The translations under genes were made by a program, and so were the position numbers. From Paraescarpia echinospica (taxonomy: Eukaryota; Annelida; Polychaeta; Sabellida; Siboglinidae), in the NCBI GenBank assembly GCA_020002185.1, contig CM034539.1, positions 31,835,541-31,899,540 on the forward strand: 64,000 nt of DNA, written 5' to 3'. The notes below the pieces were generated by a model. The model had not been told where the DNA came from, did not search any database, and worked only from the letters and a program-made list of their open reading frames with translations. Below are positions 490-59,467 of this stretch, in pieces (positions within the stretch are counted from its first letter, which is position 1; each line of letters starts with the position of its first letter).

Positions 490-555
<66 letters not shown>

Positions 556-20464: not shown

Positions 20465-20510
<46 letters not shown>

Positions 20511-23546: not shown

Positions 23547-23813
23547 GCCCCTGCTAAAAATGTACTACAGTTTATTATGGTAAACCATGATACATCCATA
23601 GTAAATCACAGTAAATATGTTATTCAATGTAGTAAGCCATGGTAAAATAGGATATTCACCATAGTAAAATAAAGTATTCACTATAGTAAACCTTATTATA
23701 TACTGTAGTAAAACATGGTAAAACATTCCGCAAAACACTGTAGTTGATAGTATTTACTATAGTAAACTATAGTAAATTTACTCTAATAAACCATAGTAAT
23801 TTTTAGCAGGGGC
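23547..23813. mobile_element. MITE, TIR GCCCCTGCTAAAAAT
   Basis: It begins GCCCCTGCTAAAAAT and ends ATTTTTAGCAGGGGC. The 267-bp interior is composed of 'agtaaa/ctatag/tggtaaacc' phrases that can fold on themselves. It lies in the intron upstream of the transposase body. An inverted copy is at 55262-55527. Confidence 0.75.
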
Positions 23814-24180
23814 TAGAGTAGAGGGGTGGGTGACACTGATGGTTTAGCAGGGGCTAGAGTAGAGGGGTGGGTAACACTGATGGTTTAGCAGGGGCTAGAG
23901 TAGAGGGGTGGGTGACACTGATGGTTTAGCAGGGGCTACAGTAGAGGGGTGGGTGACACTGATGGTTTAGCAGGGGCTACAGTAGAGGGGTGGGTGACAC
24001 TGATGGTTTAGCAGGGGCTACAGTAGAGGGGTGGGTGACACTGATGGTTTAGCAGGGGCTACAGTAGAGGGGTGGGTGACACTGATGGTTTAGCAGGGGC
24101 TACAGTAGAGGGGTGGGTGACACTGATGGTTTAGCAGGGGCTAGAGTAGAGGGGTGGGTGACACTGATGGTTTAGCAGGG
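23804..24180 (+). repeat. 41-bp minisatellite, about 9 units, runs into the gap
   Basis: The unit is AGCAGGGGCTAGAGTAGAGG followed by GGTGGGTGACACTGATGGTTT, with gctagag/gctacag variants. The first bases of each unit equal the 3' terminus of the adjoining MITE. The inverted copy (55062-55270) has about 5 units and is fully sequenced there. Confidence 0.95.
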
Positions 24181-25180: not shown

Positions 25181-25344
25181 TAGTGGACTTTGACCCCTGG
25201 ATGACAGCATAGCTGGCTAACGGTAAACAACGTTCTGGTGGAAGGATTAAAACGAAACCAATGCGTTGTGCGTTTAAATACGTTCTAGTCGTGGGATTAC
25301 AATGAAAATCAAATGCATAAATACGCTAATGTTCAGTAGGGTGT

Positions 25345-26650
25345 TTATGCATTGGACACAGACGCGTGAAAACGTGAGTAGTGACTGAAATATTTATTGC
25401 GGAGCAGTATGATAGGCGAGCATTCGGCCAGCATTCGCCCGCGGTCAACGGGTCGCCCTATTGTCCATAGCCCGTTGGGCTGCTTGACGAGGAATACTCT
25501 GGCCAGATCGGCGATGTCGTCTTCATCGTCGTCAGAGTCGTAGTGGTGGTGATGGCTGTCAGTGCCTGTCGGCGTGATGACGTGCGTAGGAGGCAACGTG
25601 AGGGTGAAAGGAGCGACCGTGCATGTCGGATTGGTCGTCCGTGATAATGTGCCGGTTGTAGGCAGTTGGATCGGTCTATGAACTAAAACCACAATACATT
25701 TTAAACAAAGGATGAGAACCATGCATTGTTTAAATGATAAAATGAGAACCACAATGGTAAAATAAAATGATGCATTACAATGGTTGTGAAATAAAATGAG
25801 ACACAATGATAAAAAATAAAATGAGACATTGTTTAAATGATGAAATAAAATGAGAACCACAATGATAAAATAAAATGATGCATTACAATGGTTGTGAAAT
25901 AAAATGAGACACAATGATAAAATAAAATGAGACATTGTTTAAATGATGAAATAAAATGAGACATGGTATTTAAACGGTAAAATGCATGCATGCATGCATG
26001 CATGCATGCATGCATGCGTACTTAACTGTAGTAAAAATAAAATGAGAGATATGCACGTACACATGCATACACTTACAATTGTTTAAATGGTAAAATAAAA
26101 TGCATGCATGCAGGCGTAGTTACAACAACTGTTTAAACTGTAAAATAAGATGCATTACAATAGTTGTGAAATAAAATGAGACATTGTTTAAACGGTAAAA
26201 TAAAATGATGCATTGTTTAAATGATGAAATAAAATGAGACATAAACGGTAAAATGCATGCATGCATGCGTACTTAACTGTAGTAAAAATGAAATGAGAGA
26301 TGCACGTACACATGCACGCACGCGCGTACTTACAATTGTTTAAATGGTAAAATAAGATGCATGCATGCAGGCGTAGTTACAACAACTGTTTAAACGGTAA
26401 AATAAAATACATGCAGGCATGCGTACTATTTAAACAGTAAAATACATGCATGCATGCATGCGTACTATTTAAACGGTAAAATACATGCATGTTGTGTACT
26501 TACAACAACTGTAGTAAAATGAGAGACATGTACGCGTACTTACAACTGTTTAAATGATAAAATGCATGCATGCATGCATGACGCGTAGTTACAATAACTG
26601 TTTAAATGTGTTGGATCTTACCGTGGCGTTGACTTATGTGGTGTGGTCAT
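25345..26650 (-). CDS. outer foldback gene, left arm: 119-aa acidic protein, unknown family
   Basis: Exon 1 is 26622-26650 (MTTPHKSTP plus two bases, donor GTAAGA). Exon 2 is 25345-25675 (acceptor agttcatag). The joined length is 360 bases with no internal stop, and the right-arm copy has the same structure. Visible features: a Thr/Pro-rich N-terminus with P-T-C-T-V-A-P, a His4 run, an acidic stretch DSDDDEDDIADLARVFL, then KQPNGLWTIGRP and a basic C-terminus. There is no signal peptide or membrane segment. I do not recognise the family. The inner gene encodes a related protein. The intron is filled with low-complexity repeats. Confidence 0.6.
25690..26600. repeat. intron of outer gene: degenerate 'gtttaaa..taaaatgaga / tgcatgcatg' repeats
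   Basis: Short phrases (aaataaaatgag, tgtttaaa.ggtaaaat, (tgca)n) are shuffled many times with no fixed period. The right-arm counterpart is 33225-34015, with several unit gains and losses. Confidence 0.85.
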
Positions 26651-26689
26651 GTTTGATGAAAAGTTCGGAGCGATGTATAGACGTTGATT

Positions 26690-27220
26690 GCGCGTGACTG
26701 TAAAAGTGTGTATGAAATGTGCGCGCCGTCAAACAGCAGTGGCGGCGGCGCATGACACTACGGCTTATCTTGATTGGAATGTGAACGGAGAACAAAGGAT
26801 TTTTATAAACGATAAACGAAACGTTAAAATCATGAAATTAAACGTTGTATACGATCCCTGGAGGGTCAGGAAACACGAGATGCAGTGATATTAGAGAAAT
26901 TTGCTGTAAAAGTCACATTTGACAATGGATGTACTGACGTGAACGCTAACTTTTTTTTTTAAAACAAATTCCTCGGTAGACTAGGCGGAATGCGTTGTGA
27001 CATCTGTTGCGCGTGACTTATCGCGATTGGAATGTGAACGGAGAACAAAGGATTTTTACAAACGATAAACGAGACGTTAAAAGCATGAAACTAAACGTTG
27101 TATAGGTTCAGTGTGGAGTCAGGAAACTGGAGATGCATCGATATTAGAGAAATGTGATGTAAAGAGAGATTTAACGGTGAATGTACTGACGTGACCGGAA
27201 ACTTTTTTCGAAAACAAAAT
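26690..27220. repeat. direct repeat (about 210 bp x2) between the divergent gene starts, left arm
   Basis: Blocks at about 26760-26960 and 27010-27215 share 'gattggaatgtgaacggag', 'aacaaaggatttttA.aaac', 'gttaaa..catgaaa.taaac', 'gatattagagaaat' and 'aatgtactgacgtga'. The two copies precede the two divergent genes, so they look like a duplicated promoter or 5' flank. The right-arm counterpart is 32640-33165. Confidence 0.75.
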
Positions 27221-27672
27221 GCCTGGGATAAATTAAGTATGCACGCTGATAATTGAATAAGATAATGGTATTAGTGTGAAGTACGCATGCGCGTTATTTG
27301 GAAAAGTATCAAACGGTTGAGAAAATGCTATATTGTATGACGCTGAAGTTCTAACGTGTATTCTTTCTACAGCAGGCCCTGTCAGCAGCAGCAGCAGCAG
27401 CAAAGCCGGTATGCTCGGTCGCTCCCATATCACGGAGTGACCCCCCTCGACCAATCACTCCACCACCACCACCACCACCACCTATCAGCCACGACGCCGA
27501 TGTCTTCGATGACGACATCAGCCTCGTGTCTCCGTTCTTAAGAAGAGGAAGCAATGGATCGTGGTACACGCCTATCCCACCGACCAAACTATTACACTAC
27601 CCTGACAGACATCCACACAAGCTAGTGGTGTTAGTTGACTACACTACCCTGATAGACATCATCACAAGCTAG
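27219..27672 (+). pseudogene. inner foldback gene, left arm (paralogue of the outer gene; nonsense in exon 1)
   Basis: Exon 2 (27373-27672, acceptor ttctttctacag) is open for 99 residues: Q-A-L-S, an Ala run from (CAG)n, KPVCSVAPISRSDPPRPITP, a poly-Pro run, SHDADVFDDDISLVSPFLRR, NGSWYTPIPPTKLL. It aligns with the outer protein at KPxCxVAP, PPxxxITP, D-DDDI and FLxxxxNGxW. The likely exon 1 (27219-27236, M-P-G-I-N) has TAA just before the donor GTATGC, while the right arm has GAA there. If exon 1 is right, this copy is dead. Confidence 0.5.
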
Positions 27673-28375
27673 TGGTGGTAAGTTGCCTACACTACTTTGA
27701 CAGACATCCTCACAAGCTAGTGGTGGTAGTTGACTACACTACCCTGACAGACATCATCACAAGCTAGTGGTGGTAAGTTGACTACACTACCCGGACAGAC
27801 ATCCTCACAAGCTAGTGGTGGTAGTTGACTACACTACCCTGACAGACATCCTCACAAGCTAGTGGTGGTAAGTTGACTACACTACCCTGACATACATCCT
27901 CGCAAGCTAGTGGTGGTAGTTGACTACACTATCCTGGCAGACATCCTCACAAGCTAGTGGTGGTAGTTGACTACACTACCCTGGCAGACATCCCCACAAG
28001 CTAGTGGTGGTAGTTGACTACACTACCCTGGCAGACATACTCACAAGCTAGTGGTGGTAGTTGACTACACTACCCTGGCAGACATACTCATAAGCTAGTG
28101 GTGGTAGTTGACTACACTACCCTGACAGACATCCTCACAAGTTAGTGATGGTAGTAGACTACACTTCCCTGACAGACATCCTCACAAGCTAGTGGTGGTA
28201 GTTGACTACACTACCCTGACAGACATTCTCACAAGCTAGTGATGGTAGTTGACTACACTACTCTGGCAGGCATCCTCACAAGCTAGTGATGGTAGTTGAT
28301 TACACTACCCTGACAGACATCCTCACAAGCTAGTGATGGTAGTTGTCTACACTACCCTGACAGACATCACTCACT
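27590..28375 (+). repeat. 47-bp minisatellite, left arm, about 16 units
   Basis: The unit is ctagtggtggtagttgacta cactaccctgacagacatcc tcacaag. The first unit overlaps the last codons and stop of the inner gene, so the array is an amplification of that gene's 3' end. Confidence 0.95.
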
Positions 28376-30248
28376 CCACTGTCTACTACCTACTGACCAC
28401 TGTCTACTCACTCCACTGCCTACTACCTACTGCCCACTGTCCACTCACTCCACTGTTTACTACCTACTGCCCACTGTCTACTCACTCCACTGTCTACTAC
28501 CTACTGCCCACTGTCCACTCACTCCACTGTCTACTACCTACTGCCCACTGTCTACTCACTCCACTGTCTACTACCTACTGTCTACTCACTCCACTGTCTA
28601 CTACCTATTGCCCACTGTCCACTCACTCCACTGTCTACGACCTACTACCCGCTGTCTACTCACTCCACTGTCTACTACCTACTGTCCACTCACTCCACTG
28701 TCTACTACCTACTGCCACTCCACTTTCTACTGCCTACTGCCCACTGTCTACTCACTCTACTGTCTACTACCAACTGCCCACTGTCCACTCACTCCACTGT
28801 CTACTCACTCCACTGCCTACTGCCCACTGTCTACTCACTCCACTGTCTACTACCTACTACCCACTGTCCACTGCCTACTGCCCACTGTCTACTAACTCTA
28901 CTGTCCACTGTCCACTCACTCCACTGTCTACTGCCCACTGTCTACTCACACCACTGTCTACTACCTAATGTCTGTTCACTCCACTGTCTACTACCTACTG
29001 CCCACTGTCCATTCACTCCACTGTCTACTGTCCGCTCACTCCACTGTCTACTGCCCACTGTCTACTCACTCCACTGTCTACTACTTACTGCCCACTGTCT
29101 ACTACCTACTGCCCACTGTCTACTCACTCCACTGTCTACTACCTACTGCCCACTGTCCACTCACTCCACTACTGCCCACTGTCTACTCACTCCACTGTCT
29201 ACTGCCTACTGCCCACTGTCTACTCACTCTACTGTCTACTACCTACTGCCCACTGTCAACTCACTCCACTGTCTACTACCTACTGCCCACTCACTCCACT
29301 GCCTACTACCTACTGCCCGCTGTCTACTCATTCCACTGTCTACTACCTACTGCCCACTGCCTACTCACTCCACTACTGCCCACTGTCTACTCACTCCACT
29401 GTCTACTGCCTACTGCCCACTGTCTACTCACTCTACTGTCTACTACCTACTGCCCACTGTCCACTCACTCCACTGTCTACTACCTACTACCCACTGTCTA
29501 CTCACTCCACTGTCTACTGCCTACTGCCCACTGTCTACTCACTCTACTGTCTACTTCCCACTGTCCACTGTCTACTCACTCTACTGTCTACTGCCCACTG
29601 TCTACTCACTCTACTGTCTAATACCTACTACCCACTGTCTACTCACTCCACTGCCTACTACCTACTGCCCACTGTCTACTCACTCCACTTTCTACTGCCT
29701 ACTGCCCACTGTCTACTCACTCTACTCTCTACTACCAACTGCCCACTGTCCACTCACTCCACTGTCTACTCACTCCACTGCCTACTACCAACTGCCCACT
29801 GTCTACTCACTCCACTGTCTACTACCTACTGCCCGCTGTCTACTGCCTAATGCCCACTGTCTACTAACTCTACTGCCCACTGTCCACTCACTCCACTGTC
29901 TACTGCCCACTGTCTACTCACTCCACTGTCTACTACCTACTGTCTGTTCACTCCACTGTCTACTACCTACTGCCCACTGTCCACTCACTCCACTGTCTAC
30001 TGTCTACTCACTCCACTGTCTACTGTCTACTCACTCTACTGTCTACTACCTACTGTCCGCTCACTCCACTGTCTACTACCTACTGCCCACTGTCTACTCA
30101 TTCCACTGTCTACTGTCTACTGTCTATTCACTCCACTGTCTATTACCTACTGCCCACTGTCTACTCACTCCACTGTCTACTACCTACTGCCCACTGTCTA
30201 CTCACTCCACTGTCTACTACCTACTGCCCTCTGTCTACTCACTCTACT
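28371..30248 (+). repeat. about 37-bp minisatellite ('cactgtctactacctactgc'), left arm
   Basis: Mosaics of 'ccactgtctactacctactg' and 'cccactgtctactcact' with many partial units. Another block lies at 30640-30785. Open frames through it are repeat artefacts. The right arm keeps only about 340 bp of the same array. Confidence 0.95.
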
Positions 30249-31090
30249 GTGTTGGGACTCTAACAGTGTCCAGTCACCCCCATACACATATAACATATAG
30301 ACAGAAGGTTGAGACTCTGACAGGGTCCAGTCACCCCCATACACATATAACATAGAGACGGAAGGTTGGGACTCTGACAGGGTTCAATCACCCCCATACA
30401 CATATAACATATAGACAGAAGGTTGGGTGTCCTGTCACCCCCATACACATATAACATACAGACGGAAGGTTGGGACTCTGACAGTGTCCAGTTACCCCCA
30501 TACACATATAACATGTAGACGGAAGGTTGGCACTCTGACAGTGTCCACTCACCCCCATACACATATAACGTATAGACGGAAGGTTGGGTGTAGGGTTAGA
30601 TAGATAGAAAAAGTTGGTGTTAACCTCGCGAAATTCACTCCACTGTCTACTGTCTACTACCTACTGTCTACTCACTCCACTGTCTACTGCCTACTGTCTA
30701 CTCACTCCACTGTCTACTACCTACTGCCCACTGTCTACTCACTCCACTGTCTACTACCTACTGCCCTCTGTCTACTCACTCTACTGTGTTGGGACTCTGA
30801 CAGTGTCCAGTCACCCCCATACACATATAACATATAGACAGAAGGTTGGGACTCTGACAGGGTCCAGTCACCCCCATACACATATAACATAGAGACGGAA
30901 GGTTGGGACTCTGACAGGATTCAATCACCCCCATACACATATAACATATAGACAGAAGGTTGGGTGTCCTGTCACCCCCATACACATATAACATACAGAC
31001 GGAAGGTTGGGACTCTGACAGTGTCCAGTTACCCCCATACACATATAACATGTAGACGGAAGGTTGGCACTCTGACAGTGTCCACTCACC
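30249..31090 (+). repeat. 57-bp minisatellite, two blocks in direct duplication
   Basis: The unit is gttgggactctgacagtgtc cagtcacccccatacacata taacatatagacagaag. Block 30249-30595 recurs at 30787-31090 with the same order of variants (offset about 537 bp), including a shortened 'gttgggtgtcctgtca' unit. It is absent from the right arm. Confidence 0.9.
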
Positions 31091-31225
31091 CGCGGCGTTG
31101 AGCTACTTCTACGCAAAACGTCGCGTGCTCGACGACGGCGTCACTACGGCGCCGATACTCGTATAAACAACCTACCTAACATAAGGACTATCCCTACCTA
31201 CCTACCTACCTACCTAAGGGGTCAC
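31091..31225. other. GC-rich single-copy segment at the palindrome centre, left side only
   Basis: The sequence 'cgcggcgttgagctacttct...cgtcgcgtgctcgacgacgg' followed by (CCTA)n has no partner in the right arm. It may be a remnant of the pre-inversion junction. Confidence 0.5.
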
Positions 31226-31371
31226 TTTTTTGTCTCTCTTTTTTTGTGTGTAAAATAAAAAAGGTTCAGGAGCCCCCACGACGGGGCCCCAAAACGCCCT
31301 ACGGGCGTTTTGGGGGTGGGGGCTCCTGAACCTTTTTTATTTTACAAAAAAAAAAAGAGAGACAAAAAAGA
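31226..31371. repeat. central hairpin of the palindrome
   Basis: Inner stem CCCCAAAACGCCC (31287-31299), loop TAC, stem GGGCGTTTTGGGG (31303-31315). Outer stem ggttcaggagcccccac (31263-31279) pairs with 31316-31332. Pairing then continues through 'tgtaaaataaaaaa' and 'ttttttgtctctcttttttt' to about 31370. A short bulge (gacggg) sits on the left. The inner hairpin plus T-tract also resembles an intrinsic-terminator shape, but in a eukaryote this carries little weight. Confidence 0.9.
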
Positions 31372-31373
31372 CA

Positions 31374-32265
31374 GCGGGTAGTAGGTCGTAGACAGTGGAG
31401 TGAGTGGACAGTGGGCAGTAAGTAGTAGACAGTGGAGTGAGTAGACAGTAGGTAGTAGACAGTGGAGTGAGTAGACAGTGGGCAGTAGGTAGTAGACAGT
31501 GGAGTGAGTAGACAGTAGGTAGTAGACAGTGGAGTGAGTAGACAGTGGGCAGTAGGTAGTAGACAGTGGAGTGAGTGGACAGTGGGCAGTAGGTAGTAGA
31601 CAGTGGAGTGAGTAGACAGTGGGCAGTAGGTAGTAGACAGTGGAGTGAGTGGACAGTGGGCAGTAGGTAGTAGGCAGTGGAGTGAGTAGACAGTGGCCAG
31701 TAGGTAGTAGACAGTGGAGTGAGTGATGTCTGTCAGGGTAGTGTAGACAACTACCATCACTAGCTTGTGAGGATGTCTGTCAGGGTAGTGTAGTCAACTA
31801 CCATCACTAGCTTGTGAGGATGTCTGCCAGAGTAGTGTAGTCAACTACCATCACTAGCTTGTGAGAATGTCTGTCAGGGTAGTGTAGTCAACTACCACCA
31901 CTAGCTTGTGAGGATGTCTGTCAGGGTAGTGTAGTCTACTACCATCACTAGCTTATGAGTATGTCTGCCAGGGTAGTGTAGTCAACTACCACCACTAGCT
32001 TGTGAGGATGTCTGCCAGGGTAGTGTAGTCAACTACCACCACTAGCTTGTGAGGATGTCTGCCAGGGTAGTGTAGTCAACTACCACCACTAGCTTGTGGG
32101 GATGTCTGCCAGGGTAGTGTAGTCAACTACCACCACTAGCTTGTGAGGATGTCTGCCAGGATAGTATAGTCAACTACCATCACTAACTTGTGAGAATGTC
32201 TGTCAGGGTAGTGTAGTCAACTAACACCACTAGCTTGTGTGGATGTCTGTCAGGGTAGTGTAATA
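31374..32265 (-). repeat. right-arm counterparts of the 37-bp and 47-bp minisatellites
   Basis: Positions 31374-31725 are the reverse complement of the 'cactgtctactacc' array. Positions 31726-32265 are the reverse complement of the 47-bp array (about 11 units). Confidence 0.95.
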
Positions 32266-32622
32266 GTTTGGTCGGTGGGATAGGCGTGTACCACGATCCA
32301 TTGCTTCCTCTTCTTAAGAACGGAGACGCGAGGCTGATGTCGTCATCGAAGACATCGGCGTCGTGGTGGTGGTGGTGGAGTGATTGGGCGAGGGGGGTCA
32401 CTCCGTGATATGGGAGCGACCGAGCATACCGGCTTTGCTGCTGCTGCTGCTGCTGCTGACAGGGCCTGCTGTAGAAAGAATACACGTTAGAACTTCAGCG
32501 TCATACAATATAGCATTTTCTCAACCGTTTGATACTTTTCCAAATAACGCGCATGCGTACTTCACACTAATACCATTATCTTATTCAATTATTAGCGTGC
32601 ATACTTCATTTATCCCAGGCAT
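32183..32622 (-). pseudogene. inner foldback gene, right arm (frameshifted)
   Basis: Exon 1 (32605-32622) reads M-P-G-I-N-E with donor GTATGC and is intact here. Exon 2 starts at 32468 after ttctttctacag. The CAG/CCA tract has a different length from the left arm, so the KPVCSVAP frame and the DADVFDDD frame are no longer the same. In each arm the inner gene thus has a different single lesion. Confidence 0.5.
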
Positions 32623-33190
32623 TTTGTTTTCGAAAAAAAGTTTCCGGTCACGTCAGTACATTCACCGTTAAATCTCTCTTTACATCACATTTCTCTAATA
32701 TCGATGCATCTCCAGTTTCCTGACTCCACACTGAACCTATACAACGTTTAGTTTCATGCTTTTAACGTCTCGTTTATCGTTTGTAAAAATACTTTGTTCT
32801 CCGTTCACATTCCAATCGCGATAAGTCACGCGCAACAGATGTCACAACGCATTCCGCCTAGTCTACCGAGGAATTTGTTTTTAAAAAAAAGTTAGCGTTC
32901 ACGTCAGTACATCCATTGTCAAATGTGACTTTTACAGCAAATTTATCTAATATCACTGCATCTCGTGTTTCCTGACCCTCCAGGGATCGTATACAACGTT
33001 TAATTTCATGATTTTAACGTTTCGTTTATCGTTTATAAAAATCCTTTGTTCTCCGTTCACATTCCAATCAAGATAAGCCGTAGTGTCATGCGCCGCCGCC
33101 ACCGCTGTTTGACGGCGCGCACATTTCATACACACTTTTACAGTCACGCGCAATCAACGTCTATACATCGCTCCGAACTTTTTATCAAAC

Positions 33191-34362
33191 ATGACCACAC
33201 CACATAAGTCAACGCCACGGTAAGATCCAACACATTTAAACAGTTGTTGTAACTACGCGTCATGCATGCATGCATGCATTTTATCATTTAAACAATTGTA
33301 AGTACGCGTACATGTCTCTCATTTTACTACAGTTGTTGTAAGTACACAACATGCATGTATTTTACCGTTTAAATAGTACGCATGCATGCATGCATGTATT
33401 TTACTGTTTAAATAGTACGCATGCCTGCATGTATTTTATTTTACCGTTTAAACAGTTGTTGTAACTACGCCTGCATGCATGCATCTTATTTTACCATTTA
33501 AACAATTGTAAGTACGCGCGTGCGTGCATGTGTACGTGCATCTCTCATTTTATTTTTACTACAGTTAAGTACGCATGCATGCATGCATTTTACCGTTTGT
33601 CTCATTTTATTTCATCATTTAAACAATGCATCATTTTATTTTACCGTTTAAACAATGTCTCATTTTATTTCACAACTATTGTAATGCATCATATTTTACA
33701 GTTTAAACAGTTGTTGTAACTACGCCTGCATGCATGCATTTTATTTTACCATTTAAACAATTGTAAGTGTATGCATGTGTACGTGCATATCTCTCATTTT
33801 ATTTTTACTACAGTTAAGTACGCATGCATGCATTTTACCGTTTAAATACCATGTCTCATTTTATTTCATCATTTAAACAATGTCTCATTTTATTTTATCA
33901 TTGTGTCTCATTTTATTTCACAACCATTGTAATGCATCATTTTATTTTACCATTGTGGTTCTCATTTTATCATTTAAACAATGCATGGTTCTCATCCTTT
34001 GTTTAAAATGTATTGTGGTTTTAGTTCATAGACCGATCCAACTGCCTACAACCGGCACATTATCACGGACGACCAAGCCGACATGCACGGTCGCTCCTTT
34101 CACCCTCACGTTGCCTCCTACGCACGTCATCACGCCGACAGGCACTGACAGCCATCACCACCACTACGACTCTGACGACGATGAAGACGACATCGCCGAT
34201 CTGGCCAGAGTATTCCTCGTCAAGCAGCCCAACGGGCTATGGACAATAGGGCGACCCGTTGGCCGCGGGCGAATGCTGGCCGAATGCTCGCCTATCATAC
34301 TGCTCCGCAATAAATATTTCAGTCACTACTCACGTTTTCACGCGTCTGTTTCCAATGCATAA
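33191..34362 (+). CDS. outer foldback gene, right arm: 119-aa acidic protein, unknown family
   Basis: Exon 1 is 33191-33219 (ATG, donor GTAAGA) and exon 2 is 34032-34362 (acceptor agttcatag). The total is 360 bases, the same as in the left arm. The protein differs from the left copy by very few residues (for example TTKPTC against TTNPTC). A His4 run precedes the acidic DSDDDEDDIADL block, then NGLWTIGRPVGRGRMLAECS. Conservation of frame, both splice sites and length in two arms suggests it is a real gene rather than a chance frame. Its function is unknown. Confidence 0.6.
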
Positions 34363-34509
34363 ACACCCTACTGAACATTAGTGTATTTATGCATTTGATT
34401 TTTATTGTAATCCCACAACTAGAACGTATTTAAACGCATAACGCATTGGTTTCGTTTTAATCCTTCCACCAGAACGTTGTTTACCGTTAGCCAGCTATGC
34501 TCTCATCTC

Positions 34510-45773: not shown

Positions 45774-46525
45774 CTAACTACTAACGCGGAGCCGTTCTAA
45801 ATCATGCTTAGCTCTCAACGAGTACGACGTTTCCCGCCTAACAAATAGACGTCGAATGATTGATGGTAAACAGCAGTAGTAAGCTTTGTACATAAATAAT
45901 AACGTTTTCAGATATATAATGTCTAGACATTTTAAGACACGTAATTGTTTTAAAAAAAGTGCATTCGTGTGATCCAAACGCTTGGCACCATACATAATGC
46001 GGATACCTCTTTTTTGTAGTAACACAATACCATTAATATTTGTCGGGTATGTATTACTCCATATTTCTACACAGTATGTTAAATAAGGCAAAAACAGTGA
46101 ACAATAAAGAATATACATACTATTTCTGTTAAGCAGATGACTACGTCTATACGTTATAGCTGTACTTTTGGAAAGCTTTGATTTTACGTATTTAATGTGA
46201 ACATTCCAATTAAGTAAGTCATCAACGTACACCCCCAAAAAATGTACTACTCGTACTCTTTCCATGTTAACATTCCTTATACTTATAACAATATCCCTAT
46301 TAAGCATACGATTTCCAAATAACATATAATTGGTTTTATAAATGTTTATTGTTAATCTGTTTACTGCAAACTAAGTAGACATTTTATCCCGTACGGTACA
46401 CATTGTATCACTCAGTCTTTTCATATCGCTGTCTGCACAAAAAAATTTTCGTATCACCTGCAAAGAGGATATATTTTATCGGCAAACCACGTGATATAAT
46501 GCGTACAGCAGACTTACATTTATTA
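45774..46525 (-). pseudogene. non-LTR retrotransposon reverse transcriptase C-terminal fragment
   Basis: The frame 45774-46325 reads VHFLGVYVDDLLNWNVHIKY, LFLPYLTYCVEIWSNTYPTN, LLQKRGIRIMYGAKRLDHTN. This is the FLGv..d..L.W..Hi (RT domain 7) and thumb region of Jockey/CR1-like LINEs. Upstream (46330-46500), in other frames, KYILFAGDTKIFL shows the catalytic YxDD box as FAGD, and there is a TAG. It is 5'-truncated and dead. Confidence 0.8.
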
Positions 46526-48438: not shown

Positions 48439-49387
48439 GTAAGTGGGTGTCTGTCACGGAGTAGCGAGGTCTCAGTACACTAGATGGCTCAGGTCTAGTA
48501 GAGTTCTTAAATGATAAGGTCAACGCACATGGAACGGAGCGTGTGCAAGCAACAAAGAACGAGGAAAATTTAATAAACTTTACGAATCCCTGAACCTATC
48601 TAACTAAGAAAGAAAAGTCAATGCATCTCTCAGTTATCCCATTTTCATTCCTTCCTAAAGTGGATTATTCCACTACACGACCAAACACTAGGCGCCAAGT
48701 GGTATCTAAGAAGAAACCACATTAGATATCTACATGCAACTTAACTATATATATGTTTCATGGGTAACAGTACCCAGCTCCAAGACTTTGAATCTTTGAA
48801 TAACTAAAAACGAATACCATTCATAAAACAGCAAACAATATTAACGTTCAATGAGAACATAGACATTTACGCCAGGCTAGTCCCACGCGAACCTATGCGA
48901 ATGTTCGTTGAAGTCCTCACGCCGAGCGCCGTGAACAAACAGAACAGTGCTTCTCGGCCGCACGAATGATGACGCCGGAGAGTAAACGTTTGCCGCCGGC
49001 CGCTGCGAATTCTCGAGTAGCGTCCGTGCTACGTTAAAGTTGTCTCGCTCGGTCGCAAACGATTGAGATATCGGTCGAATGCGTTCGCCCGAATGATGAC
49101 GCCGGGCAGTAGACGCTTGCCGCCGGCCGCAGCGAATTCATGAGTCGCTTGCGGTCACGCCGTCGGACGAGGCCAGCGCTGTTTGTGGTTGGTGGACACT
49201 CCCCTTATCACACTCGAGCTGGGGTGAGCGCGTCGCTACTATAGAGGGTGTCTAATGACGTCAGCACTATGCGTGCACACAGCCCCCAGCGGCCATATTG
49301 AAGTACAAGTGACCCGTTCGCAACCGCCCGCATTGTGTGTGTTCACTGAGCCGCTAAATTGTTTTCTTTGTCGTTGCACCGCGCAGT
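48439..49387. other. 5' flank of the THAP/YqaJ-type transposon
   Basis: No gene. Two direct repeats of about 58 bp at 48963 and 49091 share 'cgaatgatgacgccgg' and 'ttgccgccggccgc.gcgaat'. Sequence near 49255 (tgacgtca) has a CRE-like palindrome in the presumed promoter. I could not define a terminal inverted repeat. Confidence 0.5.
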
Positions 49388-51293
49388 ATGGCTTCAAAGA
49401 CAGTTAAAGTTCCGTATGTTGACACATTATAAGTGTTGACAAAGCAGAGGTATTTAGATAAGTTACGAATCTTTGATAGCGTTCATCCGTATTCTTTGCC
49501 GAATTCGGCATGGTCTAAGAAGGAAGCATGCTTCCCAGCTGTATCATACCCGGACATAGTGAACTACTTGATTTTTAACAAATCTTTCTACACCATGGAA
49601 GACATGAAGGCGTGGAAGAGCCTAGAGGCTTACAACCAGCTGAAGTCAGGATGGATAAGCGATGTGGCGGTTTTTGTATTTAAAAAAATGGCTACCACAT
49701 TGTACGAGCGAAAGTAAGCTTTGATTTCAGTAAATTTAGACATTTAGTTTTGATAAGTAGGTAGTCCCCCTATTAATAATATTACAATAGCCAATAGGCT
49801 TAGCTTAATGAGAATGACTGTAAAATTAATTGCAATAAAATATGTGCATGCAATTATACCTATGCCCTGTCTGTACCGCCCATTGTGACTGCATGGCTGG
49901 GTTGGGTGAGGCCTGCACTCACATCGCCACACTTCTCTTTGCGGTGGATACTACCGTGAAGATCCGTGACAGCAAGACCGTGACGCAAGAGCCAGCTTAT
50001 TGGCTGCTGCCAGCAACTCACCGAGAGGTTCGTTACAGAGAGGTTGGAGAAATCGATTTCACGTCAGCCTTGAAAAAAAAAAAGCAACTGGACGAAGCCA
50101 TTGCCAGTGGGTCGCCGGTCTCATCTCGGGTTCGTCAACCAAAGAACATTGCCGCACCAAGTCATGCTGAGCTTGACAGCTTTTTCCATGGGCTTAGCCT
50201 GGGTGACACAAAGCCTGTTGTGTTGTCCCTTCTGCCCCCGTACAGTGATGGGTTTGTTCCCAAACAGGCCCAGGTAAATTTTCCAGCAGTGCTTTCGGAC
50301 ATGTTCCAGGATGAGCTGTACAAACAGCCGTTCCATGTCGTCCTGGAGAATTGTTCGTCTGTCACGTTGGCTGTCACACTTCAACAGGCGGAGGCAGTGG
50401 AGTTGGCGACAAGGGCTCAGGCCAACTCACGACTGTGGCCAAAGTTCAGGGCTGGCAGGGTGACTGCTTCGACGTTTCACAAAGTGTGCCACACCGACCC
50501 CTCTCAATCATCACCAAATACGATCAAGGACATCTGCTACCCGGATCGACACCTGACCACACCAGCCATACGATGGGGCGCCAAGCATGAGAACGTTGCG
50601 AAGGCTGCTTATCGCAAGACGATGACCGGGCATGCTAACTTCTCCATGCGGGACTCTGGATTAGTCATCCACAACCGATATCCAGAGATTGGGGCTTCTC
50701 CCGATGGAATCGTCCGATGTGACTGCTGTGGGGAAGGCAGTCTCGGAGTGAAGTGCCCCTACCTCGTGCGTGACGAGGTCCTGAGTGAGGTAAAGGAAGG
50801 CGCCACATGTTTGGAAAAGAATGCAGATGGCACCCTACACTTGCAAAAAGGACATGCCTACTACTACCAGGTACAGTGTCAGCTGTTTGTGTGTGGGCAC
50901 AGCTATGGAGACTTTGTTGTGTGGACACAGAAGTCCTATTACTGCGAGCGCATCTACAAGGATGACATTCTCTGGGAAGAGATGGTACCAAAAGCCCGAC
51001 ACTTCTTTCGAGTAGGTGTGCTACCCGAACTGCTGGGAAAATGCCACACACGTCCACCCCTGGTTGGTTGTGCTGTGAACTCGGACACTGTGAACACTGG
51101 TGAGGCTGCACAAGCAGTGTGGTGTTACTGCCGAAAGGTGGACTGTGGCGAGATGGTGGCCTGTGACAGTGACAGCTGTCAGTATGAATGGTTTCACTAC
51201 ATGTGTGTGGGTGTGCTGTCGGAACCAAAGGGAAAGTGGTTTTGCCCTGAATGCAGAAAGAACAAACGCAAACAGAGAATGGAGAAACGCTGA
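49388..51293 (+). pseudogene. transposon-encoded SWIM / YqaJ-nuclease / PHD protein, near-intact
   Basis: The start ATG at 49388 is followed after 14 codons by an in-frame TAA, then open sequence to 49717 (donor GTAAGC at about 49711). The large exon (49842-51293, 483 codons) has a SWIM finger (CTAHCDCMAGLGEACTHIAT), a YqaJ/lambda-exonuclease-like domain at residues 195-350 (FRAGRVTASTFHKV; IRWGAKHENVAKAAY; GASPDGI; VKCPY; YYQVQCQLFV) and a complete C4HC3 PHD finger at 428-472 (WCYCRKVDCGEMVACDSDSC to WFCPEC). The usual E-x-K is G302-V-K, so a catalytic Glu is lost. With the nonsense codon this copy is probably inactive. No clear acceptor is visible just before 49842. Confidence 0.8.
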
Positions 51294-51344
51294 ATCATGT
51301 ATGCCCAAGAAGAAAGGAAAAAACACAAAAAAATAGCATGTCTG

Positions 51345-51416
51345 ACATGTCTGCAGTTTTTCATTTCACATAAAAATCCTAGCTGCACTGATGAGTCCTG
51401 GAGGGACGAAACATGT
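51345..51416 (+). ncRNA. hammerhead ribozyme, type III topology, plus strand
   Basis: Stem III is ACATGT (51345-51350) with CATGT plus A15.1 (51411-51416). Cleavage nucleotide C17 is 51351 (T-C, site between 51351 and 51352). Stem I is TGCAG/CTGCA (51352-51356 with 51383-51387), extended by TTTTT/AAAAA. Core CTGATGA is 51388-51394. Stem II is GTCC/GGAC with loop TGGAG. Core GAAA is 51408-51411. All invariant core nucleotides are present. It starts 52 bases after the stop of the YqaJ gene, in sense with it. Confidence 0.85.
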
Positions 51417-51759
51417 TACTAACAGACAGGTGCAATTACAATATATATATTCATATCAATCACAGTGACACCAATTACAGCATACCACTTTCATCGCAAA
51501 AATAATTATTCCTTTTGGTGTCTATATTGATATAATCAGGTTCAACCTAAAATCCAGATATATAAAATATCAACCAAAAATAATGTAAGTGTATTTATTT
51601 TTAGAGCATGTTTATTTACACATGTAATTTCAAACATTTATTGTTTTCCATTCAAAAGTTAATTATAATAAAATTTGTAAATGTTATTCTTACCAGAAGC
51701 TTTAGTCTTTACACAAAATTATAGCTACCTGGTGCTACACAGCAACTAATATTACACAT

Positions 51760-51831
51760 ACATGTTTCGTCCCCCCAGGACTCATCAGTGCAGCTAGGGT
51801 TTTCACGTGAAATGAAAAACCGCAGACATGT
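51760..51831 (-). ncRNA. hammerhead ribozyme, type III topology, minus strand
   Basis: Same fold as the plus-strand copy. Stem III is ACATGT/ACATGT, C17 is at 51825, stem I is TGCGG/CTGCA (one G-U pair) extended by GGTTTT/AAAACC, the core is CTGATGA (51788-51782), stem II is GTCC/GGAC with loop TGGGG, and GAAA is 51768-51765. Differences from the other copy keep base pairing or fall in loops. It starts 79 bases after the transposase stop codon, in sense with that gene. Confidence 0.85.
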
Positions 51832-51909
51832 CAGACATGCTATTTTTTTTTCTTAGATATCATTCCACACATACTACTGCGTGCCATCTCCTACCATTGT
51901 GTAATCTCA

Positions 51910-53815
51910 CTAGTCAAATGGAACGATGGGCCCATTCAAGTTTGTAAGTGCACAGCAGACTGTGGCTATTTTGTCAATCGTGGTGATTCCTTTTCAATCA
52001 TTGACGAAGAGAAAGTCAATTGGCACTGTTTCTCCCAGAAAGGTGTACTTCTGACGAAGCAGGCCAATAACACGCTCAACATGGATTCGCAGATGAGCGA
52101 GTTTTCGTGATCGTTCAAGCTCGACTGCTGGCATCTGGCTCTTCCCCTTTGTAAAGGCAGGCATTTTGATGGTTGCCATCATCAGTCCCACACTGTCATT
52201 CACATCAAACCCTCTGTCGGCCATCACAACGTCACCTTGGAGGAGGTGGTCGAGGAAACCACAGTGTTCGGTGAGGTACTTGTCACTGACTTGGCCAGCC
52301 CAAGCTCTCGACAAGAAGGAAATGGTCCCTTGTGGCGTAATTCCTATGAGGAACTTCACCGTATTGTGATGCTTGTAGGAAGACCAAGTCAGTGACCTTG
52401 CTTCCAGGTTTGATGGTGTTTCGATATACACCTCGAAACAGTCAATGATTACCACAACTTTTGACTCGAGATAACGCCAGAACTCCATCGGCATTGTCTT
52501 TCTCAACTCATCTCGTCCTGGCCATATAATTAGTGGCTGCATCATGACTTACAGAACATCGAGTGTCGACTGTCTGACGTTGAACAGAAAACCCAACAGT
52601 TCATTCGACACACTCAGGCGGAGCTTCATCAATGTCATCAATAACTGCTGAAACTTGGTCAGGGATGATCTGTGTGTTTCGTGTAGACGCGGTGACACAA
52701 GTTGTACAGCTGCATGAGGATGTAGTGAGTTGGAAGGCCGGAAAGAAAATTCACTTTGTTGTCATTGCCGGCTAAGCTGCACTCAGTCAACTTTGTAGAT
52801 GCCAACTCCAGCTTTAAGCTGCTGTTCTCTAGCGTCAGCCTCCTCATCTCTTCCTCTATTCCACGCACCACATCCCCACTCATATCAGTCTGACACTCTT
52901 GTGTCATCGTCTGCTGCTGGTGGTACTACATCATGTGCCCGGTCTTCCACTAAGGAGGTCTGCACGGACAGTAGTGTGTTGTCCATGTCTAGGCGAGCTC
53001 TGTTAGCAGCATGATCAACTTTGCGCTCGTATCGTGACAAACTGGTTGCTCCATGTGACGGCTTGAGCATGTCGTGGCCAAGGTTTATGGTGGGTGCCCA
53101 GTCACAGTTTGTTTTGTCATACAAACTGGCAGGCTTGCCTACAAAACAATATATAAAAAACATTAAAACATGCACTGAGAATATTTAATAAATATGTAAT
53201 GTGATTTGAAATTGTTTTACTGTCTTATGGCTTAAAACCCACTGTAGCATTGATACACAATAACAATTGTAACTAATACATCCATAATACTGTCAGCAGG
53301 TATTTTACTGTATAAAATGTTAGTGTTACTCAGTCAATGTTATATTTTTTATTATATTGTATTAATAAAGAAGTGTATAATTCTATGTTTATAAATTTGC
53401 TAGTCAATCAATTACATAGGCTATGGTTGCTATGGAATTTATGGCACAACACAGCCATACACAGCATAGCCATAGGTGATAGGCAAAGCCATGGGATCAG
53501 ACACAGTCACAGGCTGTTAGTTACGTAAACCTGACTTAATTTTATGTATGTAACATTTAATAATTTATACGGCCTTAACATTAATCTTACTTACCAGTCA
53601 CAAAGTGCAACGAGCATACACGAGTGTATGGGTAGTTGGACGGCTTAATGTCTGACCGGCCTATGCTGGAATGCCAGACACGCTGTCGTTCCTTCGAAAG
53701 TTGTCGAGTTTGTTCCCCCCTGCGTATGGCGAATTGTGGACAGTCTGAAGTACGACAAATGACTGTCTCTGTCAGCTCGTTTGCCGCAAGCAAATACTCC
53801 ACAAAAGTTTACCAT
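51910..53815 (-). pseudogene. THAP-DDE transposase, long copy, broken
   Basis: THAP exon about 53595-53815: MVNFCGVFACGKRADRDSHL, later YTRVCSLHFVTG (C2CH zinc pattern), with a frameshift between, donor GTAAGT. Second exon from about 53139 (acceptor ttttgtag): linker, coiled coil (RGIEEEMRRLTLENSSLKLE), then a DDE_Tnp_4-like catalytic domain 52545-51910. D1 is in [16 protein letters not shown]2 in [12 protein letters not shown], and E in [15 protein letters not shown]. The C-terminus IDKIATVCCALTNLN follows a single in-frame TGA at 51994. Other breaks lie at about 52560-52660 and 52885. The full triad is visible. Confidence 0.8.
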
Positions 53816-54528
53816 CCTTCGCGAATAACGGTGTAACGATGAAAAGAAAAGATTTACTGCATCAGTGAACATTCGCAATGTGGGTGCGCGCGGGGCGGTC
53901 TGTACTCCAGCGCTTGTACTCCAAGATGGCAGACCGCAAAAATGGTGACGTCACACGCACAGCCTCTATCGCTCATGCATGCAAATATTCGCCGTGGCAG
54001 TCGTTCTAGGACATCGGGGCCGACCGGAAAGTTTTCTTTATTATGCCGCTGTCGTGGCGGCATGGTTTCTTCGAAGCACGAACAGTCTCTCTAGACGCTG
54101 ATTATCGTACACACACATTTTGGGGAACGTAACCCACGTTAACAATTCCCACCACGCTTCGCAACTTAATTTGCCATTTCCTTGGCAGTAGGGTAACCTG
54201 TGTCGTTCAACCCTGGATCTGTCCCAGTCCTTCGCCAGCGACCAGATGGCGAAATGCTTATGACAGACGTTTATATATGTGGACCTATTTACACATCATA
54301 TGATCGGTTTCCATCATTTCTATTAGCTACTAGGGTAAATGTGCCTAATGTCAGACACTACCATCTATCGGACACTTTATCTTAAAATGTTTGGAATTCT
54401 CGACTTGCCATTCTCCCAGTGTGCAATGTGCGCGCATGCGCAAGCACCGTAGCAACAAGAGCTCGGTGAATGCTAGGTGAATGAGTCCATTGACAGTATA
54501 CACGGAGTAGAGATCGGAGCATACTGTC
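53816..54528. other. spacer between the long and the deleted transposon copies
   Basis: No gene. It should hold the right end of the long transposon and the 5' end of the deleted one. 'gtcagacactaccatctatc' and 'ggacacttt' near 54350 are candidate terminal motifs, but I find no clear inverted partner. Confidence 0.4.
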
Positions 54529-54721: not shown

Positions 54722-55061
54722 GTTAGTATCATTTTGTATAATTACGTATGTATTGGGAAACTTGTCATATAAATATGATTAAGTGTATTTGTATACGACT
54801 GATCTTCAAAATGTTGAGGTTGGTTGACTAGAAGAAGTGTAACGAGAATTATACCAGGGGAAGTAAAATATCACTGGCCTGTCTATCTATAATTACTAAC
54901 ATGTGTCCCCCCTCTGTGTTGTTCACCTAATCACTCTCCTACATCCATTATATATGCATATTTAACCAAATGACCAGGCTTATCTACCCGACACATTGAT
55001 ACAGAGATAATTGAAGGAATCTTGTTGATTTGAGGCCTGGTGGCTAGCATGTTATATCACC

Positions 55062-55527
55062 TAAACCATCAGTGTCACCCACCCCTCTACTCTAGCCCCT
55101 GCTAAACCACCAGTGTCACCCACCCCTCTACTCTAGCCCCTGCTAAACCATCAGTGTCACCCACCCCTCTACTCTAGCCCCTGCTAAACCATCAGTGTCA
55201 CCCACCCCTCTACTCTAGCCCCTGCTAAACCATCAGTATCACCCTCCCCTCTACTCTAGCCCCTGCTAAAAATTACTATGGTTTATTAGAGTAAATTTAC
55301 TATAGTTTACTATAGTAAATACTATCAACTACAGTGTTTTGTGGAATGTTTTACAATGTTTTACTACAGTATATACTAAGGTTTACTATAGTGAATACTT
55401 TATTTTACTATGGTGAATATCCTATTTTACCATGGCTTACTACATTGAATAACATATTTACTGTGATTTACTATGGATGTATCATGGTTTACCATAATAA
55501 ACTGTAGTACATTTTAGCAGGGGCATC
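55062..55527. repeat. 41-bp minisatellite (about 5 units) and MITE, inverted copies
   Basis: 55062-55270 is the reverse complement of the array at 23804-24180. 55262-55527 is the reverse complement of the MITE at 23547-23813. Both lie in the intron after the THAP exon. Confidence 0.9.
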
Positions 55528-55600
55528 TACCATGTACACCTGTAATGTGAAGTACTAAGACTGGAGGACAACTGGTTAAGCAATTGACAATTGTTTTAGG

Positions 55601-56600
55601 TAAACCAAGGTCACAGCCAACACATCCTGACTACGTGCCCAGTCAGTTTGCCTATATGCAGAGCTGCTCCCTTGAAAAGGGAAAGAAACGGTTGGAACGT
55701 TTCAACAGCGCAACGAAGCAAGCAAAGTTGTTTAGAGAAGAACAGGATGATATGTCAGGAGATGTCAAGTTTGAGATTTCAGGAATCCTGGAGCTAGATG
55801 TCACAATCTATGCCGAGACGACTGTCTCATCACCTGTTCATCCCTCTGCTGTTACATCATCACCAGTCCCAGATATACCACTGTTGGCATCAACACCTGC
55901 ATCTGGTTTGCGTAAACCAGTTGAGAGAAGTGAACGCAAGATGTTATACGACGAAATTGACAATTTGCGTCGTGAAAAGGATGACATTATTGCGGAACGT
56001 GACATTTTATTAGCTTCGCAGTTGAATTCTGGTGTGATTAAGGACAATGATGCACGTTGTAAATTTTACACAGGATTGTCCTGGGAAGTGTTCCTAAACC
56101 TCTCTGTCTTTCTTTCTACGATTGTTAATACTTCTGCAAAATGTGCCATTCCTCCAACAGAGCAATAGTTTCTTACTCTGGTAAAGCTACGTCTAAATCT
56201 TCCATTTGAACTAATTTCCCATCAAGCTGGTGTGGATGTCACTACCATATCTAGGTGCTTCTGGAAAACAATTGACGTACTATATGCCAAAATTGGTTTC
56301 ATGGTAAGATGGCCAGCAGACTCTACCTGCAATCTTTAAATTACATTTCCCCAGATTAACTGGTATTATGGAGTGTTTCGAAATTGTTATTGATCGCCCG
56401 AAAAATTTAAAAGCACGGGCACATGTGTATTCTAACTATAAGAAACACAGTACTGTTAAAGTATTCATTGTATGTGGCCCACTAGGTGCTGTCATTTATC
56501 TGTCTACTGCCTGGGGTGGCCGAGCTTCAGATGTTGAAATGGTGCGTGCATCAGACTTTATTTCTTCTAAGTATCACCAACCACACGACGTGCACTGGAG
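55601..56600 (+). pseudogene. transposase body of the deleted transposon (right copy)
   Basis: The acceptor is ttgttttag. It reads GKPRSQPTHPDYVPSQFAYM, linker, coiled coil (DEIDNLRREKDDIIAERDIL) and stop TAG at 56166-56168. Beyond the stop it continues to CFEIVIDRPKNLKARAHVYS (first catalytic Asp) and the same deletion junction as the left copy at about 56575-56590. A 17-base or similar loss at about 56312 (R-W-P then T-L-P) adds a frame change not present on the left. Confidence 0.75.
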
Positions 56601-57591
56601 CTGGTTTCACCTTCTTCACGAAGTCGTTGTTCCAGTAGCATGGCAACTCAGTACATGCACGTCTGGTGTACCCGAGACTTACTGCCGCTTCCACCTTGAA
56701 CAGCAGTGCTGCTACATGTGAACATGATTCACCGGGTCTGAAACAGAACAACGTAATAAATAAATGCATGTAAACAATTTCATTTTGATTACTAAAATAA
56801 ATTATTGGTCTTCTGTGATATAAAAACACTTTTTATATTGATCACAGTAGAGCAATAATTGAAATAATCCAAACACCAACGCATGCACGCAGGCCGTAAT
56901 AAACACTGCCAAGAATAACTCGGAATACTGACAGTTCATCAGGTTCACATACATAAATAAATATAATGATACGTACAATAAAACCTGCTATAGTAAAATA
57001 TGATTATAACTGGACGTGCATGGGCTAAAAGCAAGCTTAACCATACTTATAGCATCTCTCCACCATGTTGATGGGTCATGTTTCCCAATATTTTGGCTTT
57101 ATTGCAACACATTTCTCATTGTCAGCATAATTTTTTTTTTTTTAAACATTCAGTGTGCATACTTACCCAGCCATACAATCACAGTGTGCTGCTGTCACAA
57201 CCCTGTCCTTCTCGTGTAAACCTATCCAGGGATGGTGCGGTGTGTCGTTAACCCTCTGCGATGGAGTGACGTCTGCCTTGAGAATGCATTGAGGGCTGTC
57301 AGTGTCAGTTGGCTTGTAGTAAAGCACGGTTTTCACCCAACCAGACTCAAACTGGTTGTGAGCCTCGAGACTCCGTCGATTTCTCACAGACTCTCTCGTG
57401 AATACGCCTGGTGTCTCGATTAGGTAGTACGATACATCAGGCCATTCGATCTCTGGCCATTTCGTGGGATCGTCTACCCACGAACCTGCGGGAATATTGT
57501 ACGGACAGGTTCCCGCAGACAGCGCTGTCAGTTTTGACATGTAACGCGCTCGGTCGGAATAACTCAAACCTTCCAAGTATCCGAACGACAT
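56570..57591 (-). pseudogene. SWIM-protein exons of the deleted transposon (right copy)
   Basis: Exon 1 is 57591-57166 (MSFGYLEGLSYSDRARYMSK to CDCMAG). Exon 2 is 56736 to about 56570 (PGESCSHVAALLF...). Both are almost identical to the left copy. Confidence 0.7.
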
Positions 57592-58244
57592 AATGATCTA
57601 ACTACACTAAATCCGTAACTTACAACAAATAATATAACTAAACTAATTTAACGACGAATAATAAATAAAACAAGTTTTTAGGTATACACAACGCGAGCGC
57701 ACAACACAACATCCGTACGTATTTCTTCTTTAATTCTACGTGTTGGTTACGCCACCTGGTAGATAATATTATTGTTGCCTGGGTGACGCCACGTGGAGGA
57801 CACTGGACGCACTTGTCAAATCGCGCTGTACAGTTTGAAATCGGTAAGTAGGGGTGCAAGTGTCCGGCTGCAATAGTTCTTATTAGTGTTTGATTAACGT
57901 TACCATGTAATTATAGAATGACATTATGAATACATAGAGAACACACTGGATGCAGTTTTGAGGTGCACGTTTTGCACTGCGTGTTCACGCAACGTAAAGC
58001 GTAATAAGTGACGCAAGTGGTGTGTCGTTTGTGGGGCTTTTTGAAATAACGTAACCAGAAACCGGACGCGACGGATGGGGTTGTCCGATTACCATCCAGT
58101 TTTCGTGCAGCTCCGTTCAAGGTGCTTATGTCCCGTAAGTATTTTAGGGCTGTAGTTTAAAATAAAAAATAAGCTGGTTGTGATATTCTCCCGATTAATA
58201 CATAAACTACGAAGTATTCTAAGCTTGCATTATGTCAACATATC

Positions 58245-58439
58245 ATGTCAAAATACAACTATGCAAAGGAGCAAATGGCGGCCACCCTGGATGCCTGTCC
58301 TACCCAGGGCATGGGGGTGCGGAGAACGGCGGAACTGTTCTCAGTGCCAAAGTCGACACTAAGCGACAAGTTGCTCGGCAAGTCGCCCGAGCAGTGCAAA
58401 TGTGGTCCGGACACAGTCCTAACTTCGTGCTTAGTATAG
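58245..58439 (+). pseudogene. psq-type HTH fragment (right copy)
   Basis: It reads MSKYNYAKEQMAATLDACPT and so on. It differs from 20620-20814 by about three residues (A/D, L/M, K/N). Confidence 0.65.
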
Positions 58440-59467
58440 TATCACTTATAAATATAGAGGCCTAAAAACAAAACTAGCCTATTATAATAACAGGGATGGA
58501 ACATTGAGTAGGTGACTGGATGAGTGCGTAAGTGAGTGTGTGATTGATTGATTGAGTGAGTGAGTGAGTGAGTGAGTGAGTGAGTGAGTGAGTGAGTGAG
58601 TGAGTGAGTGAGTGAGTGAGTGAGTGAGTGAGTGAGAGTGAATGAGTGAGACTTGGTGATTGTCATCGAATATGGACGTTTTTCTAAAATATATATTTTG
58701 AATAAAGCTAGGATTCCATATGTACGTATACGGTATGCGTATGCGGCAAACAACGAATTCATTGCACAGTGGAAATACATAGGAGTTTTTTAATGCGACT
58801 GTAGCGAATTGAATCGCTCCATGCAGCGATTCGAACTGTATCTGCACAGGAATCGGATAGGAAATTCCCAGTAGTGACGTCACTACAGAGGTATTCCCCA
58901 TACCACTCTCGTTTCCTACGCGGTTCCGCACATATGGAATCCTAGCTTTAAATTTTCATTCATTCATAAGCCTGTTGTCTACGTAGGTTCAACGCACAGT
59001 ATTTTATTAAACTTATTAACACGAAAACAACTATCGTGTCTTTGTCTGACACTTTTTAATGGTTAATCAAAGTCCCTTCAGAGGAAACATTTGTGGTACG
59101 AAAGGGGGTTTGAACCAAAGCCCCATAATGGATGTTTAAATAGTGTTTTCCTGCGTTACCTTTAGTGCAATTACTGTTTAGCTGAACAATTAATGGGCGC
59201 CTAGCCTTGGCTCTTGTAACCTCCTCGTTTTTGAAATTTTACTAACGTCTGAGCCTACTAATAGGAAAAGCAAGTTTAGGCGTACCGCTACACATCGCTA
59301 CTTTCCACCATATAAATACAACGGAGTGTCAATTCATTGGTTATATTTTATTATCGTTGCACAATGAAGTTCTCGGTACAGGCGTACATTGAGTCAGTGG
59401 CATTCATGTTAGCTTGGATAACAATAGTAAGCGGTTACTGTTCATGGTATAGGCTGCAATTACAGTC

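Follow-up and report, generated by a model that had tools for sequence, protein, structure and literature searches.

Hammerhead ribozymes of animals have been described, as far as the accessible portions of the literature go, in circular RNAs, tandem repeats and retroelements, and also in a small number of host genes. The mobile elements that carry them, i.e., retrozymes, Penelope-like elements and Terminons, are retroelements in which the ribozymes occupy terminal or tandem repeats and belong, in animals, to type I (PMC7229834, PMC6431247). Type III hammerheads come mostly from plants, circular RNAs and prokaryotes, and the described animal ones are of an extended type (PMC7936874, PMC7761336). 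For example, both polarities of the HDV-like RNAs of toad and termite carry hammerheads of type III in which helix I is long and the loops make contacts (PMC7936874, PMC7761336), and cleavage during transcription was reported for these ribozymes (PMC7936874). In mammals, an atypical type III hammerhead lies in the Clec2 3' UTR, where a role in the polyadenylation site was suggested (PMC6155905).

Among DNA transposons, the closest described system is the ISL2EU group of PHIS transposons, whose members have two ORFs, for a YqaJ exonuclease and a DDE/THAP transposase, a mean length of ~4840 bp when autonomous, and ends marked by an AT target-site duplication in the context A|AT|T with GG as first bases (PMC4482050). 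The word "ribozyme" does not occur in the main text of that paper, and within the accessible portions of the open-access literature we found hammerheads reported neither from an ISL2EU element nor from the genes of any other cut-and-paste transposon. Here, we describe an element with the ISL2EU coding layout that has a pair of hammerheads between its two genes, and we weigh how this pair may have arisen and what it may do.

Two convergent genes of an ISL2EU-type transposon

The window, by which we mean the whole stretch of 64,000 bases that was analysed, looks eukaryotic and has a G+C content of 41%, calculated with its two 1000-base runs of N (2000 N) counted in the total. A two-gene transposon occupies about 49.2-54.0 kb, with its genes convergent (Table 1). 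The forward gene (gene 1) has Pfam matches to YqaJ (PF09588, E 1.9e-20) and PF01771 (E 4.2e-14), ends with TGA at 51291-51293, and has a PHD-like finger that scores under the cutoff (PF23011, E 3e-4, 21.3 bits, cutoff 27). An upstream exon, in which the Pfam scan gave no match, is possible at 49433-49717. The reverse gene (gene 2) matches DDE_Tnp_4 (PF13359, E 1.4e-44 over 52545-51994) and ends with TAG at 51912-51910, while its THAP-like part was matched below the cutoff in one of two scanned pieces (PF05485, E 2.8e-4, 22.0 bits versus 23.9), the other piece giving nothing. The first-pass annotation had called the element a THAP/YqaJ DNA transposon with one gene in each direction. Its YqaJ assignment holds, in combination with DDE_Tnp_4, and by sequence the YqaJ plus DDE_Tnp_4 coding layout is confirmed as that of an ISL2EU-type transposon, whereas THAP is marginal. 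One correction applies: gene 1 is an open frame, but this copy of gene 2 is broken, with parts in different frames and two in-frame stops inside the DDE region.

Table 1. Coordinates of the transposon, its genes and the elements between them (window positions)
Feature	Position	Strand	Basis
ISL2EU-type transposon, candidate limits (4725 bp)	49243..53967	none	degenerate terminal inverted repeats, AT on both sides
Gene 1, main exon: YqaJ exonuclease, PHD-like finger near C-terminus	49842..51293	+	Pfam, open frame of 483 aa
Gene 2: DDE_Tnp_4 transposase and THAP-like part	51910..53900, 5' limit approximate	-	Pfam, frame inspection
Inverted repeat, left arm: A-tract, repeated CATGTCTG, ribozyme	51327..51416	+	blastn
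Predicted 6-bp hairpin at 3' end of + 5' product, GCATGTCTGACATGTC	51336..51351	+	folding
Type III hammerhead, + copy	51344..51417	+	RF00008 43.7 bits, descriptor; cleavage expected after C51351
AT-rich spacer between arms	51417..51759	none	
Type III hammerhead, - copy	51759..51832	-	RF00008 39.3 bits, descriptor; cleavage expected after C51825
Same 16 bases as GCATGTCTGACATGTC; hairpin probable in uncut RNA	51825..51840	-	sequence, folding
Inverted repeat, right arm	51760..51849	-	blastn

The limits of the transposon are candidates. At the left, AGAGGGTGTC begins at 49243 and its counterpart ends at 53967, with AT adjoining each (49241-49242 and 53968-53969), possibly by chance; a terminal-inverted-repeat-like alignment joins 49299-49381 with 53829-53909, and another, looser and gapped, lies further out. 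The A|AT|T context and GG start known for ISL2EU are absent at 49243 and 53967, and the candidate length compares with the ISL2EU mean given above. Just outside the candidate left end, two 68-base direct repeats that are 84% alike occupy 48959-49026 and 49086-49153.

Two type III hammerheads of common descent

Between the two stop codons lie two sequences that each contain the hammerhead core (CUGANGA and GAAA), an NUH cleavage site and three stems with stem III open. In the + copy, stem III pairs 51345-51350 with 51411-51416 (6 bp, or at least 8 counting G-U and one further pair), C17 is 51351, stem I starts with 5 bp (UGCAG/CUGCA) and continues into a long distal part, CUGAUGA occupies 51388-51394, and a 4-bp stem II (GUCC/GGAC) with loop UGGAG is joined by GAAA. 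The - copy has the same architecture (C17 at 51825, CUGAUGA from 51788, loop UGGGG), except that a stem I pair is G-U in place of A-U. A hammerhead descriptor matched these two places in the window and nothing in 1680 dinucleotide shuffles, and a wider descriptor that also allowed type I returned the same two matches only. Rfam RF00008 recovered both in an 801-base scan (E 3.9e-8 for the + copy, E 6.8e-7 for the - copy), though neither reaches the gathering score of 48.5, which is why a whole-window gathering scan lists nothing. Given the RF00008 matches and the descriptor result, the identity of the two elements as type III hammerheads is secure, and self-cleavage is predicted. These results bear out the two complete hammerheads, with the core and stem lengths, that had been read from the letters of the window in the first pass, and the cleavage sites then proposed (51351/51352 on +, 51825/51824 on -) coincide with the C17 positions.

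Each hammerhead is in sense with the nearer gene, the + copy with the YqaJ gene and the - copy with the transposase gene. Stem III begins 52 (+) and 79 (-) nt after the last base of the stop codon, again as first annotated, and the expected cleavage sites follow the stops by 58 nt (+) and 85 nt (-).

The hammerheads lie in an inverted repeat, the arms of which are 94.4% identical across 90 bp by blastn (95 nt and 93% by repeat finding) and read, 5' to 3', A-tract, UAGCAUGUCUGACAUGUC and the remaining ribozyme; the similarity ends at the ribozyme 3' end, i.e., the final ACAUGU of stem III. By this similarity the two hammerheads are homologous, of common descent, and therefore do not count as two independent occurrences. 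Motifs, positions, orientation and shared descent are established here. The 80-base cores are of equal length, without indels, and five transitions distinguish them, of which one changes the stem I pair mentioned above, three fall in distal stem I and one in loop II, leaving the core bases and all 15 counted stem pairs intact in both. The earlier statement that the differences preserve pairing is therefore true, but it carries little weight, as five random transitions preserved core and stems in 14.8-16.0% of trials.

Two of these changes, A to G in loop II and U to C in distal stem I, may together amount to a U-A to C-G exchange in a 3-bp contact between loop II and stem I (UCC/GGA in one copy versus CCC/GGG in the other), and a scripted list of longer pairings gives a 5-bp loop II/stem I register in the - copy only. 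One study considered a pseudoknot joining stems I and II likely for ~40% of the hammerheads that it examined (PMC3088659). Covariation is not established here because there are only two sequences, and we set aside compensatory change as proof of function, there being one two-sided change and the random control just given.

Compared with known hammerheads, the pair agrees with RF00008 in core, three stems, topology and cleavage site, and departs from it in the sub-gathering scores and in the 24 bases that the alignment places at the stem I end, where the model has 1. With the extended type III hammerheads of toad and termite HDV-like RNAs and insect genomes, as far as the accessible text describes them, it shares an animal source, a 5-bp first part of stem I, an internal loop, an extra hairpin and a possible Watson-Crick contact with loop II; in that type, however, a 6-bp stem II goes with a contact that uses the 5' side (GCCR with YGGC; PMC7936874), whereas the present pair combines a 4-bp stem II with a candidate contact on the 3' side. 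The discontinuous Clec2 hammerhead is likewise type III, with a long helix I, and located in a 3' UTR, but it belongs to a host gene and its helix I spans 150-1500 nt (PMC6155905); here, each convergent transposon gene has one hammerhead, in which stem I extends by 26 nt past its initial 5 bp. Like the retroelements cited at the outset (PMC7229834, PMC6431247), this is a mobile element carrying hammerheads, yet a DDE transposon with a single inverted type III pair. A retrozyme or Penelope-like element was set aside as an identification, as the wider descriptor found no second same-strand hammerhead in the window and hence no direct hammerhead repeat.

Predicted folding and a possible role at the gene ends

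In 77-nt segments, the minimum-energy structure is the hammerhead. The fold energies are no better than those of shuffles (z 0.09, -0.01, -0.72, -0.06), so the case rests on the motif. In 88-nt segments, stem III has a probability of only 0.04-0.09, with the upstream repeat CAUGUCUG competing; the decoy pairing reaches 0.76-0.89 (+) and 0.35-0.40 (-), and the alternative structure is a 6-bp 5' hairpin. When the RNA runs from the stop to 60 nt beyond the ribozyme, the hammerhead is the minimum-energy fold of the + copy (stem III 0.81-0.96), while stem III is at 0.0 in the - copy and is 0 on that strand in all three longer contexts. RNA that includes the whole spacer and reaches the second arm has stem III at 0.0 in both copies, and with both arms present the predicted structures, at -201 (+) and -240 (-) kcal/mol, no longer contain the hammerhead. 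The + hairpin at the cleavage site is predicted to compete with stem III in uncut RNA; in the tested - 5' product, the minimum-energy fold lacks the terminal hairpin. Since the longer contexts lose stem III, cutting, if any, would have to come early, during transcription.

The first-pass annotation had named 3' ends defined without poly(A) and prevention of antisense read-through as possible roles. Along these lines, we tentatively read the pair as a 3'-region feature, of common descent, of both convergent genes, which would set or limit their 3' ends and sever read-through. In this model, the RNA of each gene would cut itself while being transcribed, at the predicted sites past its stop, while the polymerase has yet to traverse the spacer and reach the second arm. 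A 2',3'-cyclic phosphate a little past the encoded A-tract would terminate the 5' product, and a short hairpin would cap its 3' end, at least for the + gene. The most likely consequence would be that the ribozymes set or limit the 3' end of each gene; in addition, they would sever read-through RNA that, left uncut, would run antisense to the opposite gene or form a long duplex. Here, we infer cleavage in the cell, the order of events and any benefit to the element. The retention of every core base and counted stem pair in both copies, the placement of both hammerheads shortly after stop codons and the precedent of the Clec2 3' UTR speak for such a role, and the arm similarity ends at the ribozyme end as if the cassette had been kept or copied as a unit. 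Their sense orientation weighs little, because any inward-pointing repeat between convergent genes gives it automatically. Against the role stand the loss of stem III in several of the longer contexts, the broken transposase gene, and polyadenylation-like hexamers downstream of both ribozymes, with AATAAA in the spacer at 51667 on + and starting at 51642, 51616 and 51599 on -. We set the hexamers aside as evidence, since by estimate such hexamers are not rare in AT-rich DNA.

A fuller version of this functional reading, which we consider unlikely, would give the transposon lineage its own cassette of encoded A-tract, short hairpin and type III hammerhead that ends both convergent genes. The cut would create a 3' end independent of poly(A) and sever read-through before it could pair with the message of the opposite gene, and the element would thereby be shielded from silencing triggered by double-stranded RNA. 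If the pair is the transposon's own, the known uses of natural ribozymes would come to include the 3' ends of genes in a DNA transposon, and the locus would offer a simple system for comparing a self-cut 3' end with polyadenylation and for the prevention of double-stranded RNA from convergent transcripts.

The same folds also fit relics, i.e., hammerheads that were acquired once, duplicated and are now drifting, uncut in the cell as the upstream repeat out-competes stem III. The equilibrium folds in longer contexts, the broken transposase gene and the random-transition control, which gave no statistical sign of constraint, are all consistent with decay. Yet neither copy has lost a core base or a counted stem pair, and hammerheads can cut during transcription, ahead of equilibrium, as in the toad and termite ribozymes, so we regard decay as improbable.

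Relatives of the transposon and the origin of the inverted repeat

A protein search with YqaJ among 7476 candidates gave 433 proteins at E <= 0.001, including one (P0001) that is 96% identical to the gene 1 product, and the named relatives among the best 120 of the 433 are mostly from molluscs and other marine invertebrates, which suggests a host of this kind, with a single bacterial label that is probably contamination. An alignment of 26 of these best 120 of 433, picked for spread, found no relative among 160 candidate stretches of viral_contigs and one (L001) among 143 of genome_contigs, while hammerhead patterns matched nothing in either collection. L001 (positions 1-3616) is filed under a Candidatus Poribacteria MAG and is probably sponge host DNA in a bacterial bin. 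It encodes a YqaJ relative (tblastn E 2e-58, 37% identity in the best segment) and, on the opposite strand, a frame that was recognised by eye as transposase-like and is convergent with it, with 157 bp between the two stops. Neither strand of L001 contains the CTGANGA core, its intergenic part has no inverted repeat of at least 20 nt above 75%, and Rfam gave no match at E <= 1. A distant relative with the same layout and no hammerhead counts against the functional reading given above.

The same relative bears on whether the pair belongs to the transposon at all. With a probability equal to that of the functional reading, the inverted repeat and its spacer may be a nested foldback or MITE-like element, with hammerheads in its terminal repeats, that was inserted between the genes, an alternative already given in the first-pass annotation; the unit, bounded by the G that precedes CATGTC in one arm and by the partner of this G in the second, would measure ~505 bp, and the ribozymes would then not be those of ISL2EU. 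Without this unit, the stops would be separated by ~110 bp, similar to the spacing in L001 (157 bp), the one relative compared as DNA, which at 37% identity is distant and lacks the pair. Inverted arms flanking an unrelated spacer with no ORF of at least 80 aa speak for such an element, and an inward-pointing pair in it would share the direction of each gene even if no selection had acted. Both outer ends of GCATGTC adjoin TA, which is the dinucleotide duplicated by mariner-type elements at their target. However, the complementarity of the arms runs on through this TA into A7/T9, and a clean TA duplication would therefore require that the target itself had been an A-tract/T-tract palindrome, and no other direct repeat or target-site duplication was recognised by eye at the ends of the inverted repeat. 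Moreover, no second copy of the arms was found in the window, where the spacer has no further copy either (E <= 1) apart from matches of 13-24 bases, and the inner end of the repeat coincides with the ribozyme end. If the pair came with a nested foldback, terminal inverted repeats that bear hammerheads would define a new type among non-autonomous elements.

Viroid-like and delta-like circular RNAs likewise have a type III hammerhead on either strand, and a DNA copy of such an RNA could have been captured here with one hammerhead per polarity. We consider this very unlikely. The spacer is not markedly rod-like (fold z-score -1.68, with 6 of 100 shuffles as good), and a rod-like circular RNA origin was set aside on that result; the spacer also lacks the ORF mentioned above, and two exact ribozyme patterns had no match in viral_contigs, although the latter is weak evidence.

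The window holds fragments of another ISL2EU-type element, in near-identical inverted copies at 19566-24011 and 55061-59467 whose pieces are 96-100% alike, with a DDE fragment at 56368-56721 (+) that covers profile positions 1-76 of 158 and overlapping YqaJ-like frames on the - strand. Both copies look internally deleted and are therefore uninformative on the original gene junction. Rfam finds no hammerhead in 19000-24180, where it gives two other weak matches, and neither the descriptor nor the Rfam gathering scan finds one in 55061-59467. One N run follows directly after 59467 and another 170 bases after 24011, and the copies represent either a real inverted duplication or an assembly effect.

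Other repeats were recorded in the window. A second large inverted duplication lies within 25200-34507, with pieces of 25200-28716 and 31377-34507 that are 95-99% alike and, inside it, tandem repeats with steps of mostly 30-37 bases. A long tandem array with a 40-base period spans approximately 3440-5900, in which 56 copies of a 300-base reference were registered. Finally, a 183-aa frame at 45774-46325 (-) resembles by eye what we take to be the C-terminal part of a non-LTR reverse transcriptase ORF.
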